From contig NZ_JACLZI010000056.1 of the NCBI RefSeq assembly GCF_014280935.1, positions 62,001-126,000 on the forward strand: a stretch of 64,000 nt of DNA, in the 5' to 3' direction. The notes under the pieces were generated by a model that was given only the letters and a program-made list of their open reading frames with translations, had not been told where the DNA came from and did no database searches. The position numbers and the translations under genes were made by a program. The stretch's first letter is position 1. Every line of letters begins with the position of its first letter. Shown here piece by piece: positions 43,232 to 47,841 of this stretch. The DNA comes from Aquibacillus kalidii (lineage in GTDB: Bacteria > Bacillota > Bacilli > Bacillales > Amphibacillaceae).

Positions 43232-43263
43232 AAGAAACCGTAAGCAGTGAGCTTCGGTTTCTT
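43232..43263. terminator. Bidirectional terminator between DUF389 gene and c-di-GMP gene
   Basis: Arms AAGAAACCG...AAGC and GCTT...CGGTTTCTT (43232-43245 with 43251-43263), one bulge. Confidence 0.88.
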
Positions 43264-45070
43264 ATACAGTGTCAACTGTTTCTACTGAAATATAATTTTT
43301 TTCTATATAGTCGATAAATCCTTCGACAAAATAAGGATCAAACTGTGTTCCTGCACATGCGCGAAGTTCAACTATAGCTTCTTGGAAAGTCTTTGTTTTC
43401 TGATAAGGTCTTTCTGTAGTCATAGCATCAAAAGAATCAATAATACAAAGTATTCTTGCTAACTTTGGTATTTCCTCCCCTTTTAGCCCATGGGGATAAC
43501 CCTTACCATCATAGCGTTCATGATGAAGCTCTACTAAAGGAGAAATATCCTTATTTTTATCGTGTAACTCAACAATCTGCTTACCCCAAGTTACATGGTT
43601 TTTAACCAATTCCCATTCTTCTTTTGTTAACTTTCCTTTTTTGCTAATTATTTCTCTTGGAACTTCTAACTTACCAATATCATGAATTAAGGCACCTAGC
43701 ATTAGTACCTTACGCTCATAGTCCTTCAAATCCAATAATTTACTGAATTCTACTGCATATTTAAATACTCGTTTACTATGTCGATACGTATAAATATCTC
43801 GAGCAAGGAAAATTTTGAGCTGTTGCTCCATTTCCTCCATAGGTTCCTCTATACTAATAGCTTCTATTTCTTTCCCATACACATGCGTATTATTTTTCCC
43901 TTGCGCTTTGGCATAATACATAGCCTGATCGGCATGACTTAGGAATTCAGAAGAACTTTGTATCTCCGAATTCCACTCAATTACCCCAGCTGAAAAAGAT
44001 AAACAACCGTATGGAAGGATCTCAACCCCTTCATAATACGTATCATTTATTTTTTTTCGAAGGCTATCTATAAAATGGGCTGCATCTAATTCATTCGTTC
44101 GCTTCATTAAGATAACAAATTCTTCCCCGCCATATCGTGCAACAATATGCTGATTTGCAACACATTCTCTTTCTAATTGTTGTCCAAAAAAGGTTAATAA
44201 ATTATCACCTTTTAAATGGCCATTTGTATCGTTATATTTTTTAAAGTCATCTATATCAAGCATCGCAAGGCTAAGTGGCTCTTTGCTTTGCTTTATTTCC
44301 AAAATTGTTTTAGCTAATTCTTCTTTAAAATATCCGTGGTTATTTAAACCAGTCAAATGGTCTTTGTTCGCTTTATCTGCAACCTTTTGATAAAGCTCAA
44401 AATGTTGTTTAAATGTAAATGATAAGAGTAAAGCAATACATACAAACAAAAATAGCCCCATAAATGGTGCCATATTTACTAAAAAACTTAAAACTATAGA
44501 TAATAATAAAGTGCACAAATAACTTTCAAATGCACCAATTAGAACGCCTTTTAAGGCATCAATTAATCCTGTCTTTTTCATTAAGTAAATAAAGATAGCC
44601 ATAAGAAACAAATTTATTAAAAAGTAAATACCAAGAGAAAATACATACCCTAATACGTTCTCAATACGAACTTCCCCAATTGTTCCACCTACAGATAAAT
44701 AAGCGAAATGAGCCATCCCAATCATAATCGCATACAGAGAAAAATTAAAAGGGGAAATCCACCAAAAGTCTTCACGAAAGTAAATAAAGTGGATAATACT
44801 ACTAAGTAGCAATACAACTAATGTAAAATCTAGCCCGAACACAAACAAAGTTGCTAAATAAATAGCAGAATCCATAGATAAGAAATTCCCCTCAGGAGGA
44901 AGTTGAATTCTGTAGTGATCTACAACCAAAGTAGAAGCAACAAGTGCATAAATGAGTACCCAATCTGATAAACTAAATTCAAAATCAACCATCATAAAGA
45001 ACAGGATAGTTCCTATCAGTATTATTAATGCAGCATATATATGTTTATTTTCCAACACTCTATATTTCAT
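43262..45070 (-). CDS. Membrane GGDEF and HD-GYP protein (c-di-GMP synthesis and breakdown)
   Basis: A 602-residue signalling protein. The N-terminal 220 residues hold about seven membrane helices, an uncharacterised sensor. A GGDEF domain follows (about 232-390) with the catalytic motif intact as GGEEF (about 316) and no obvious RxxD inhibitory site. The C-terminus is an HD-GYP phosphodiesterase (about 410-595) with HSKRV, HDIGK (about 462) and HHERYDGKGYP (about 523). Both opposing activities therefore look functional, so the sensor may set the balance. The start is ATG; the site AAAGGAGAGA is 22-31 bases upstream, so it is not ideal. It is the last gene of a unit with the 43-residue peptide and the DUF5317 protein. 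Confidence 0.9.
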   Translation of the reverse strand: MKYRVLENKHIYAALIILIGTILFFMMVDFEFSLSDWVLIYALVASTLVVDHYRIQLPPEGNFLSMDSAIYLATLFVFGLDFTLVVLLLSSIIHFIYFREDFWWISPFNFSLYAIMIGMAHFAYLSVGGTIGEVRIENVLGYVFSLGIYFLINLFLMAIFIYLMKKTGLIDALKGVLIGAFESYLCTLLLSIVLSFLVNMAPFMGLFLFVCIALLLSFTFKQHFELYQKVADKANKDHLTGLNNHGYFKEELAKTILEIKQSKEPLSLAMLDIDDFKKYNDTNGHLKGDNLLTFFGQQLERECVANQHIVARYGGEEFVILMKRTNELDAAHFIDSLRKKINDTYYEGVEILPYGCLSFSAGVIEWNSEIQSSSEFLSHADQAMYYAKAQGKNNTHVYGKEIEAISIEEPMEEMEQQLKIFLARDIYTYRHSKRVFKYAVEFSKLLDLKDYERKVLMLGALIHDIGKLEVPREIISKKGKLTKEEWELVKNHVTWGKQIVELHDKNKDISPLVELHHERYDGKGYPHGLKGEEIPKLARILCIIDSFDAMTTERPYQKTKTFQEAIVELRACAGTQFDPYFVEGFIDYIEKNYISVETVDTV

Positions 45071-45124
45071 TTTTTAAGTCACTTCCAAAATTAAATTAAA
45101 GGAGAGAAATAACTTCTCCCCCCT

Positions 45125-45256
45125 TTAGTTTCCAATTCCAGGCCCAGCTTTGAAGCCTGATGTAAGACTAGAAACCAATGAATATATAATAAAAGCATTA
45201 ATTAGTAAACCTGTAAGTTTGATTCCTAGTAAACTTTTTTTATTGTTTTTCTTCAT
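45125..45256 (-). CDS. 43-residue membrane/exported peptide, translationally coupled
   Basis: A peptide of 43 residues: a basic start MKKNNKKSLLGIK, a hydrophobic segment LTGLLINAFIIYSLVSSL and a short polar tail TSGFKAGPGIGN. Its ATG overlaps the TGA of the DUF5317 gene (ATGA) and is preceded by GGAGGTGAG, a very strong ribosome binding site. It looks either like a one-helix membrane peptide or like the precursor of an exported peptide. I do not recognise it. The location, between a membrane protein and a c-di-GMP enzyme with a large membrane sensor, suggests a signalling or subunit role, which is inference. Confidence 0.7.
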   Translation of the reverse strand: MKKNNKKSLLGIKLTGLLINAFIIYSLVSSLTSGFKAGPGIGN

Positions 45257-45903
45257 ACTATCTCACCTCCTTCAAGTTTATTTACTTTAGAAGGTGGATC
45301 ATTTAACTTCTTTTTCGATTCCATCATTTTATCTTGAATGAAAATAAAAATACCTATATTCATTATTACATCACCAATACTAATTACTTGGCTTTTTGGA
45401 TATGGTGATGTAATTGGAATGATATCTCCTAAAAAACCTAGATTAGTAGAATCAGTTAACAATTGATGTTTCGCGTATAGTCCATTATTAATTGCATCTA
45501 TATACGAAGGATCTAAAACCAAAGCAGCTTCTGCGGAAACTGGCATTCTTCCTCCATTAAATAGCATAACAACAAAGTTCAATAGAACTCCTAAAAATAG
45601 AACTGAAATTCCTTTTCGATCCCGGTTCATCCATAAAAATATTAAACCTATGACATAAACTATCACAAATATATAATTACTCGCTTGACCAATTATGTCA
45701 ATATTATTTTGTAAATAAAAGATAGTAAATTGTAGGACTAACAAGACAGGAAAAATCCAACCCCACCTAAACAGTTTTTCATCAAGTAACCACTTAAGGT
45801 TACCTTTTCGAAGAAAGCCAATAATAACTGACCATACAATTCCATCGACTACCATAATTGATTTCCCCATCCAATTAGTTAATATTTGATATAAATTCAT
45901 CAA
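45253..45903 (-). CDS. DUF5317 membrane protein
   Basis: A 216-residue protein with about five membrane helices and the DUF5317 landmarks FNGGRMPVSAEAAL (residues about 116-129) and LGDIIPITSPYPKSQVISIGDVIMNIGIFIFIQ, seen in stretches. The function of the family is unknown. ATG at 45903; the leader is AT-rich with a weak site. It is the first gene of a three-gene unit with the coupled 43-residue peptide and the GGDEF/HD-GYP protein. Confidence 0.85.
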   Translation of the reverse strand: MMNLYQILTNWMGKSIMVVDGIVWSVIIGFLRKGNLKWLLDEKLFRWGWIFPVLLVLQFTIFYLQNNIDIIGQASNYIFVIVYVIGLIFLWMNRDRKGISVLFLGVLLNFVVMLFNGGRMPVSAEAALVLDPSYIDAINNGLYAKHQLLTDSTNLGFLGDIIPITSPYPKSQVISIGDVIMNIGIFIFIQDKMMESKKKLNDPPSKVNKLEGGEIV

Positions 45904-46251: not shown

Positions 46252-46275
46252 AAAATCCTAAAATTTTAGGATTTT
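46252..46275 (-). terminator. Terminator of the MEDS kinase gene
   Basis: A perfect 24-bp palindrome (12-base arms AAAATCCTAAAA) with flanking A and T runs; it overlaps the stop codon. Confidence 0.8.
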
Positions 46276-47548
46276 AATTAACTGTTGGTAATATAATTTC
46301 AAACGTAGTGCCTTTACCCTCTTCACTATGAATCTTTACTGTTCCACCATGACTTTTTATTATATTGAAGGATATGATTAAACCAAGTCCCGTGCCGTCT
46401 TTTTTAGTTGTATAGAAAGGTTCACCGATCTTATGAAGTTGCTCTTTTGGAATTCCTGGACCCTCATCGGTTATCATCAAAATGACATTATTAGAGACTT
46501 TTGCTGCCTTAATTGTAATTCTGCCACCATTCATTACTTCAATTGCATTTTTAACCATATTAATAATAACTTGTTTAACCTTTGTATCATCACAAACAAT
46601 GTTTAAATCTTGAGACATAAACATTTTCTCTATAAGGATACTTTTCATTACTGCTTGTGATTCCAATAGCACAACAACTTCATTAACAATGTTTACTAGG
46701 TTATGTACCTCTCTTTGTTCAGAGTGAGGCTTTGCAAGAAGCAATAACTCACTCGTAATTTGTTGGATTCGGTTGAGTTCATTTTCTATCACTTTATAAT
46801 ATTTCGTATTATGATTATCATCCTTTAAGAGTTGGAAGAAACCTTTAATGGTTGTTAACGGATTCCTTATTTCATGACAAATTCCTGCAGCAAATTGACC
46901 TGCAAACGATAATTGTTCCGAGCGCATCATAAAATTATCCGCTTCTTTTTCTAAGTTAATTTGATTAGAGATGGAAGGTGAGTCACTTTCATCATGATTA
47001 TATAAGTATGAGGGTATAAGAAAAGAATCAGTCATAAAATATGGATGAGAGTTTAACATCTCTATTACTAAAGATGCTGAAATTAAATTACCATCATATG
47101 CGCATACGGTGTAAATTTGAAGATTTCTGATGAACTTATCCGCCTTCTGTTCATAAGACAACACTTGCGAAACCTCTTGGATTCTAACATTACCCCAAAC
47201 TCGGAGGACTTTCCCTTTTTCTAAATAAGGATCCGCCAAACTAGCTAATTCTTCCAAGGACTTTTCCATAGGAAATCCACTTCTATAAAATAAATCCGAT
47301 TCAACAAAAGATATATTTTGAATTTCTGTCTCGCTTACTGATTTATCCTTTAGTTTGTCGATTATTTGATCTATGTACACTTTATGATCGACATAAATGA
47401 CACCTTCATTATTTATAAGCCCTTCGAAAATAAAATTAGTCGCATTTTCTATGTACTTTTCACGGTCATTATAGATATATAAAATATGACCTCCTGTAGA
47501 CAGACTGTTGTGATGTACATTTGATTCCTCAATTTTCTCATTTAGCAT
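46274..47548 (-). CDS. Cytoplasmic histidine kinase with MEDS sensor domain
   Basis: A 424-residue soluble kinase. The N-terminal half is a MEDS domain, a sensory module first seen in DcmR-type proteins (GGHILYIYNDREKYIENAT at the start and VLRVWGNVRIQEV in the middle). A KinA/ResE-type core follows: phospho-acceptor His about 226 (GICHEIRNPLTTIKGFF), N box MVKNAIEVM, G1 DEGPGI and G2 GTGLGL. The HEIRNPLT motif is typical of sporulation-type kinases that feed Spo0F. No partner regulator is near, so it may be an orphan phosphorelay kinase. The start is ATG at 47548, after GAGAGAGG; the frame to 47572 has a poorer site. Confidence 0.87.
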   Translation of the reverse strand: MLNEKIEESNVHHNSLSTGGHILYIYNDREKYIENATNFIFEGLINNEGVIYVDHKVYIDQIIDKLKDKSVSETEIQNISFVESDLFYRSGFPMEKSLEELASLADPYLEKGKVLRVWGNVRIQEVSQVLSYEQKADKFIRNLQIYTVCAYDGNLISASLVIEMLNSHPYFMTDSFLIPSYLYNHDESDSPSISNQINLEKEADNFMMRSEQLSFAGQFAAGICHEIRNPLTTIKGFFQLLKDDNHNTKYYKVIENELNRIQQITSELLLLAKPHSEQREVHNLVNIVNEVVVLLESQAVMKSILIEKMFMSQDLNIVCDDTKVKQVIINMVKNAIEVMNGGRITIKAAKVSNNVILMITDEGPGIPKEQLHKIGEPFYTTKKDGTGLGLIISFNIIKSHGGTVKIHSEEGKGTTFEIILPTVN

Positions 47549-47841
47549 GACAATATTTTCCTCTCTCACCATACTTACATTAAAATTCGCCTTTTGGTTA
47601 ATTATAACAATAGGTAAAGATTATGAAAAGTTAATATTATCGCCGCTTGAATTTTATTTTCATTCATATTTTTAAGTACGATATGCTTTTAAAAATAATT
47701 ATCTATATAGGGTTGATCATTTCACTTATAATTTCTTTGCTACTACATTTTCAATATTAAGATTGGGAATGTTAACATATTATTCGCTTTATTACACATA
47801 CTTTTCATACACTATATTTTGTTTCTCGAGGAATGATTTAA

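Follow-up and report, generated by a model that had tools for sequence, protein, structure and literature searches.

The window analysed here is a stretch of 64,000 nucleotides from Aquibacillus kalidii, and it carries a minus-strand operon of three genes, in which the gene of a DUF5317 membrane protein is followed by that of a 43-aa micropeptide and then by that of a GGDEF+HD-GYP enzyme. The features of the locus are as follows.

45253..45855, minus strand: DUF5317 membrane protein, 200 aa (Pfam PF17248, E=8.5e-50; alignment of 113; AF2 model)
45263..45272, minus strand: ribosome binding site of the micropeptide gene, AAGGAGGTGA (read from the sequence; strong in most relatives)
45125..45256, minus strand: micropeptide gene, 43 aa, with an ATGA overlap with the DUF5317 gene (sequence, selection, profile searches)
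45097..45127, minus strand: stem-loop with a 13-bp stem, from the peptide stop codon (folding z=-2.3 in the window)
43262..45070, minus strand: membrane-bound GGDEF+HD-GYP enzyme, 602 aa (Pfam; GGEEF, HDIGK and GKGYP motifs)
44375..45070, minus strand: residues 1-232 of the enzyme, a putative MASE9-like membrane sensor (weak MASE9 match, iterated profile, AF2, PDB fold matches)
43889..44371, minus strand: GGDEF domain (GGEEF), residues 234-394 (PF00990, E=1.6e-36)
43334..43789, minus strand: HD-GYP domain, residues 428-579 (PF13487/PF01966)

The ATG of the micropeptide gene (45256-45254) overlaps the TGA of the DUF5317 gene (45255-45253) to form an ATGA at 45256-45253 on the minus strand, and the strong ribosome binding site lies ahead of it at 45272-45263, both as read in the first-pass annotation of this DNA. 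That annotation also assigned domains for making and breaking c-di-GMP to the product of 43262-45070, and this assignment held, with matches to GGDEF (E=1.6e-36) and HD_5 (E=3.1e-35) and intact motifs (GGEEF at residue 314, HDIGK at 463, HHE at 516 and GKGYP at 522). By profiles and motifs the protein belongs with the GGDEF and HD-GYP enzymes, and cyclase and phosphodiesterase activities are predicted for it; the RxxD inhibitory site is absent from it. For the DUF5317 gene, the longer form starting from a TTG at 45903 is unlikely, and the start is probably at 45855 (MVVDG...), the point at which its relatives begin. The translated micropeptide, MKKNNKKSLLGIKLTGLLINAFIIYSLVSSLTSGFKAGPGIGN, has a basic N-terminus, a single hydrophobic helix and the tail LTSGFKAGPGIGN. 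Upstream on the same strand lies a gene for a MEDS-domain histidine kinase (46274-47572), which is not a conserved neighbour of the three genes.

An open reading frame of 25-43 codons was found after DUF5317 at 116 loci in Bacillaceae, Paenibacillaceae and their relatives, usually behind a strong ribosome binding site, and the enzyme gene came next after it wherever the contig allowed. In 169 close pairs, pN was 0.114 compared to a pS of 0.467, with a median dN/dS of 0.15, and the substitutions fell mostly at third codon positions, a pattern that was gone in shifted frames. The micropeptide gene is thus a real coding gene under purifying selection at the protein level, and the frame first proposed from a single genome is conserved in related ones. 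N(-12), T(0) and S(+1) did not vary among 87 unique sequences, and G(+2) was present in 84, so that the best-conserved residues lie within the helix and at its end. The tail after the helix is also chemically conserved, with [FYWM][KR][LIFV] and a few further residues, and is nearly uniform between genera. Conservation along the peptide showed no helical periodicity when its moment was taken at 85-115 degrees (p=0.88), so the data do not establish any particular packing face, and a conserved helical face was rejected. Pfam gave no match for the micropeptide of the window or for the Clostridial type described below, and NCBIfam held no fitting model, with a weak match to MgtU (3.5e-4) in just 2 of 25 Bacilli-type members.

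Linkage of the peptide to its two neighbours was strict in Bacilli. A profile built from the peptide only (A6) and searched blindly against 299 genomes of the order matched 47 genomes, with one match each, and all 47 matches were located 27-108 nt downstream of DUF5317 on the same strand. The micropeptide was present in every genome of this search whose match to DUF5317 was better than 1e-43, and no orphan or paralogous copy was found in the 299 genomes. When neighbouring genes were clustered at 79 Bacilli loci, DUF5317 was present at all 79 and the enzyme at 75, while the next commonest neighbour reached only 8; therefore, the unit consists of three genes, and the placing of a c-di-GMP gene beside the pair extends well beyond this strain. 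A stem-loop separates the peptide stop codon from the enzyme gene in Bacilli, with z<-2 at 73 of 91 loci (median z -2.9) compared to only 14 of 105 control stretches, and its position is conserved while its sequence is not. From this hairpin we infer a control of ratio, by which more DUF5317 and peptide than enzyme would be produced.

The module is also widespread outside Bacilli. Of the 398 Bacillota genomes sampled, 118 (about 30%) had DUF5317, and its profile, like that of MASE9, also gave matches in the Thermus and Thermotoga controls. In Clostridia, the gene order is usually HD-GYP followed by DUF5317, often before a secA-like gene, and a micropeptide of 24-30 aa (..LAGGANFRW; for example MSKLLKAITVLVTLVLAGGANFRI and MKNLLWILLTLMALAMAGGANYRW), dissimilar to the Bacilli type, lies just upstream of HD-GYP. 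In further clades, MMKKVFFWLTVASMVLAAVARFPWR is encoded between the DUF5317 and enzyme genes, or MKARVKYILTVAAVIAAAVAPVISRPWW ahead of DUF5317. Across the phylum the peptides range from 24 to 45 codons; we treat those of different clades as having one role, a grouping by position and architecture rather than by proven descent. Under fixed rules, a micropeptide frame was present at 66 of 73 DUF5317/HD-GYP pair loci, and at 71 of the 73 when the rule on the ribosome binding site was relaxed, compared to 4 of 223 control regions (450 nt upstream of other genes at the same loci), where the four included one true member and one AgrD-like peptide. A Clostridial profile (A7) gave 67 matches at E<=1e-6 over the 398 genomes, all 67 in genomes bearing DUF5317. 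In 59 cases the distance to DUF5317 was no more than 3.8 kb; of the eight further matches, most immediately preceded a MASE9-like HD-GYP gene in genomes with DUF5317 elsewhere, and the rest were at contig ends. MASE9 genes without an adjacent DUF5317 had a candidate micropeptide in only 2 of 20 cases. At 19 loci where DUF5317 has no HD-GYP gene beside it, the micropeptide was absent, which is no independent proof because several of these have the enzyme and peptide elsewhere or lie at a contig end. Across Bacillota, the micropeptide is tied one-to-one to DUF5317 and the MASE9-like c-di-GMP enzyme.

Several loci were unusual in themselves. Two tandem, near-identical micropeptide genes (MYKLMARFGFIVVLLLSAWAGWRW and MLRLMARYGFIVVLLLSAWAGWRW) lie between DUF5317 and a gene for an 898-aa GGDEF/HD-GYP protein in L207. 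Some Clostridial loci (for example L164, L359 and L364) have an HPF-like gene, a gene of about 370 aa, a gene of about 214 aa (..EIHVLA..R.PKQIVRDIES..), the micropeptide and HD-GYP, continuing with DUF5317 and the secA-like gene where these are adjacent; no clear family was found for the two genes upstream of the micropeptide (one was tested). In the one annotated record examined, a Natranaerobius plasmid, the gene table, which is known to be incomplete, is blank at the peptide (L277:1889-1975).

Two other accounts of the short frame fit these data poorly. It might work purely in cis, either as a leader or by coupling translation, and the ATGA overlap, the strong ribosome binding site in many Bacilli and the hairpin that comes next would suit such a role. 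However, the dN/dS of 0.15 and the residue-level invariants in 87 unique sequences speak against a cis-only element; the operon position differs between clades, and in a group of genomes (f129) the peptide stays beside the enzyme although DUF5317 is located elsewhere. We consider this account very improbable. Still more improbable is that the frame encodes an unrelated hydrophobic peptide, a small toxin or a holin-like one; this is suggested by size and hydrophobicity only and is at odds with the strict linkage to a two-gene pair, the protein-level conservation across genera and the lack of any other conserved partner gene.

The first 232 residues of the enzyme were described in the first-pass annotation as a seven-helix membrane sensor; prediction gave about eight helices instead, in a MASE9-like domain with an ECF S-component fold. 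The domain matched MASE9 (PF20972) weakly (17.3 bits compared to a cut-off of 24.3, E=0.0046). The Clostridial partners in L155 and L146 passed the cut-off (Clostridial partner matches of 7e-9 and 1.5e-8), and an iterated profile joined the sensor domain of the window to the Clostridial MASE9 proteins. In the AF2 model (pLDDT 94.7, pTM 0.91), the domain is predicted to have the six-helix fold of ECF S-components, a likeness of fold that says nothing on the ligand: the best 22 PDB entries were all ECF S-components or NikM/CbiM (Z 9.0-13.8; next 5.4), and the Foldseek probability against RibU was 1.00. No sequence relatives of the domain were found among PDB chains at E<=10. To our knowledge, the likeness of MASE9 to ECF S-components had not been noted before.

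The outputs fused to this membrane domain vary, being HD-GYP alone, GGDEF+HD-GYP or HD+HATPase_c_2. In L146 (1654-3453), the MASE9 HD-GYP protein and DUF5317 are naturally fused in a chain of 600 residues, and the micropeptide frame is still found upstream. This fusion, the constant front end with varied outputs and the absence of any other conserved neighbour in Bacilli were counted in favour of a module. It is established that the three genes form one conserved, selected module, in which the membrane parts are constant and the cytoplasmic outputs exchangeable; the candidate signalling module suggested by the first-pass annotation is thereby supported, with a linkage far wider than a single window. 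Membrane HD proteins of about 690 aa occur in L162, L166, L168, L169 and L172, those of L162 and L172 ending at the C-terminus in a HATPase_c_2 domain (RsbW/SpoIIE-type), and a possible phosphatase gene lies upstream of the membrane HD gene in L162 and L168. The front end shared with the L162-type proteins may feed partner switching.

The DUF5317 protein matched its family profile over positions 4-151 of 151 with 169.1 bits (gathering cut-off 25). Its AF2 model (pLDDT 93.7, pTM 0.86) predicts a short N-terminal helix, four membrane helices and an extracytoplasmic domain at residues 100-158 that holds most of the invariant residues. In the alignment of 113, G89, N93, M104, P105, D144, S159, G161, D162 and G168 were invariant and N100 was present in 110; most of these lie in or beside the segment that links helices 83-99 and 160-185, which the positive-inside rule would place outside the cell. 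The model found no usable solved fold (Foldseek and VIA; best Z 3.2), and sequence relatives in the PDB were absent at E<=10. A relationship of DUF5317 to MASE9 was rejected by profile comparison. We found no function, partner or solved structure for PF17248, and DUF5317 was named in no paper of the literature searched.

Two of the invariant residues, D144 and D162, are 18 residues apart, and the second belongs to an SxGD that opens the last helix, which raised the question of a membrane aspartyl protease. DUF5317 would in this case, perhaps like LspA, cut a lipobox without Cys (LTS|GFKLV or LAG|GANFRW), and the outer peptide would be sensed by the S-component-like domain. The LspA proteins examined have VVD....FNxAD with the same spacing, the best profile match between DUF5317 and LspA is exactly the SxGD motif (P 0.0064 compared to 0.14-0.21 for control pairs), and the peptide helices end in LAGG and LTSG, as lipoboxes do with Gly in place of Cys. 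Against this, the hhalign probability was 5.9% with only the SxGD motif aligned, LspA was not among the listed Foldseek and VIA fold matches, DUF5317 lacks the GNxxDR motif found in LspA, and the peptide tail is conserved rather than diversifying. Since the profile comparison did not support homology to LspA/Peptidase_A8, homology was rejected; proteolysis by DUF5317, the chief rival of our preferred reading, is kept just as a lead, which we find doubtful. Its phylum-wide form, with DUF5317 as an intramembrane protease whose dedicated substrate is the micropeptide and with the product read by an ECF-S-like receptor that has HD-GYP, GGDEF+HD-GYP or HATPase outputs, is unlikely; if it were true, the path from DUF5317 protease through micropeptide to ECF-S-like receptor would amount to peptide signalling of a new class.

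The first-pass annotation did not decide between an exported signal and a small subunit as the role of the peptide. As an exported quorum signal, it would be matured by general proteases, with DUF5317 as its exporter or co-receptor. The basic N-terminus, the hydrophobic core and the small residues before a tail of 4-9 residues resemble a short pro-pheromone, and divergent DUF5317 genes in three other genomes (L149-L151) are found within agr-type cassettes that also include a GGDEF or GGDEF/HD-GYP gene. In these loci, DUF5317 accompanies a multi-pass protein of about 155 aa and AgrB (Pfam-confirmed in L149), with AgrD-like peptides in L149 (..CLFAAYQPEEPECLRD) and L150 (..CWWFIYQPEEPASLKDE) and a c-di-GMP gene that is GGDEF in L149 and GGDEF/HD-GYP in L150 and L151; an agr-to-c-di-GMP circuit is possible there. 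However, none of these enzymes is MASE9-like, and agr genes are found only beside some divergent DUF5317 loci and in L156. In L156 (2946-7001), a complete DUF5317-micropeptide-HD-GYP module is directly followed by agrB-like and agrD-like genes, the gene of a multi-pass protein and the beginning of a histidine-kinase-like gene. Because L156 carries both the micropeptide and an agr cassette, the micropeptide is no replacement for AgrD, and the analogy with Agr becomes a weaker argument for a signal role. The lack of extra copies in the 299 genomes, the near-uniform tail and the position of the most conserved residues also disfavour a quorum signal, which we regard as quite improbable. Because the tail is chemically conserved, no orphan or extra copies were found and the peptide always occurs with the pair, the evidence leans to a subunit or dedicated substrate and away from a diversifying pheromone.

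Our preferred reading, with a probability of about 0.5, is that the micropeptide is an obligate single-helix partner of the DUF5317/sensor complex. It would insert N-in/C-out and pack with DUF5317 and the receptor, displaying its short aromatic-basic tail (FK/FR-L-V, NFRW or PWW) at the outer face. DUF5317, via its conserved outer domain, would hold, gate, mature or process the assembly. The S-component-like membrane domain of the enzyme would be the receptor, switching the cytoplasmic diguanylate cyclase and phosphodiesterase. The tail and helix end would equally fit a processed signal, and a micropeptide that is processed and exported as a signal is possible, though less favoured than the obligate partner.

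DUF5317 and MASE9 are already catalogued; the gene of 24-45 codons that accompanies nearly all DUF5317/HD-GYP pairs fits no family model. We regard the module as a form of membrane c-di-GMP signalling whose obligate peptide component is undescribed. In line with the earlier remark that no system of this make-up was described, no such module was found in the literature searched, which covered few subscription journals; the one 'MASE9' paper there was unrelated, and no description found of the MASE9 domain mentioned an accessory membrane protein or obligate micropeptide. Knockouts, heterologous expression or structures of these c-di-GMP enzymes without the micropeptide may therefore miss a part. 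Two membrane families of unknown function gain a testable job, and a candidate answer is offered to what MASE9 receptors sense.

Compared to known systems, the window protein is a member of the DUF5317 family, and the sensor is linked to MASE9 of GGDEF/HD-GYP proteins, which the Clostridial partners match directly. The sensor shares its predicted fold with the S-components of ECF transporters (RibU, FolT, ThiT, BioY; NikM/CbiM), but it is fused to a c-di-GMP enzyme, whereas S-components work together with an ECF T/ATPase module, and a check for EcfT/EcfA at the locus level found no other conserved neighbour at the 79 Bacilli loci. The 18-residue Asp-Asp spacing and the SxGD/FNxAD at the start of the last helix recall LspA (signal peptidase II), from which DUF5317 differs in the non-significant profile comparison, the lack of a fold match and the missing GNxxDR. 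As in Agr (AgrB-AgrD), a short membrane peptide stands beside a multi-pass membrane protein and a membrane sensor; unlike Agr, the module of the window is without AgrB, an AgrD motif or a histidine kinase. Single-helix peptides that act with a membrane protein include MgrB (with PhoQ), CydX and KdpF. The micropeptide resembles these in its single helix and its size range of 30-50 aa, and it differs in having no sequence family found for it and, as its partner class, a c-di-GMP enzyme together with DUF5317.
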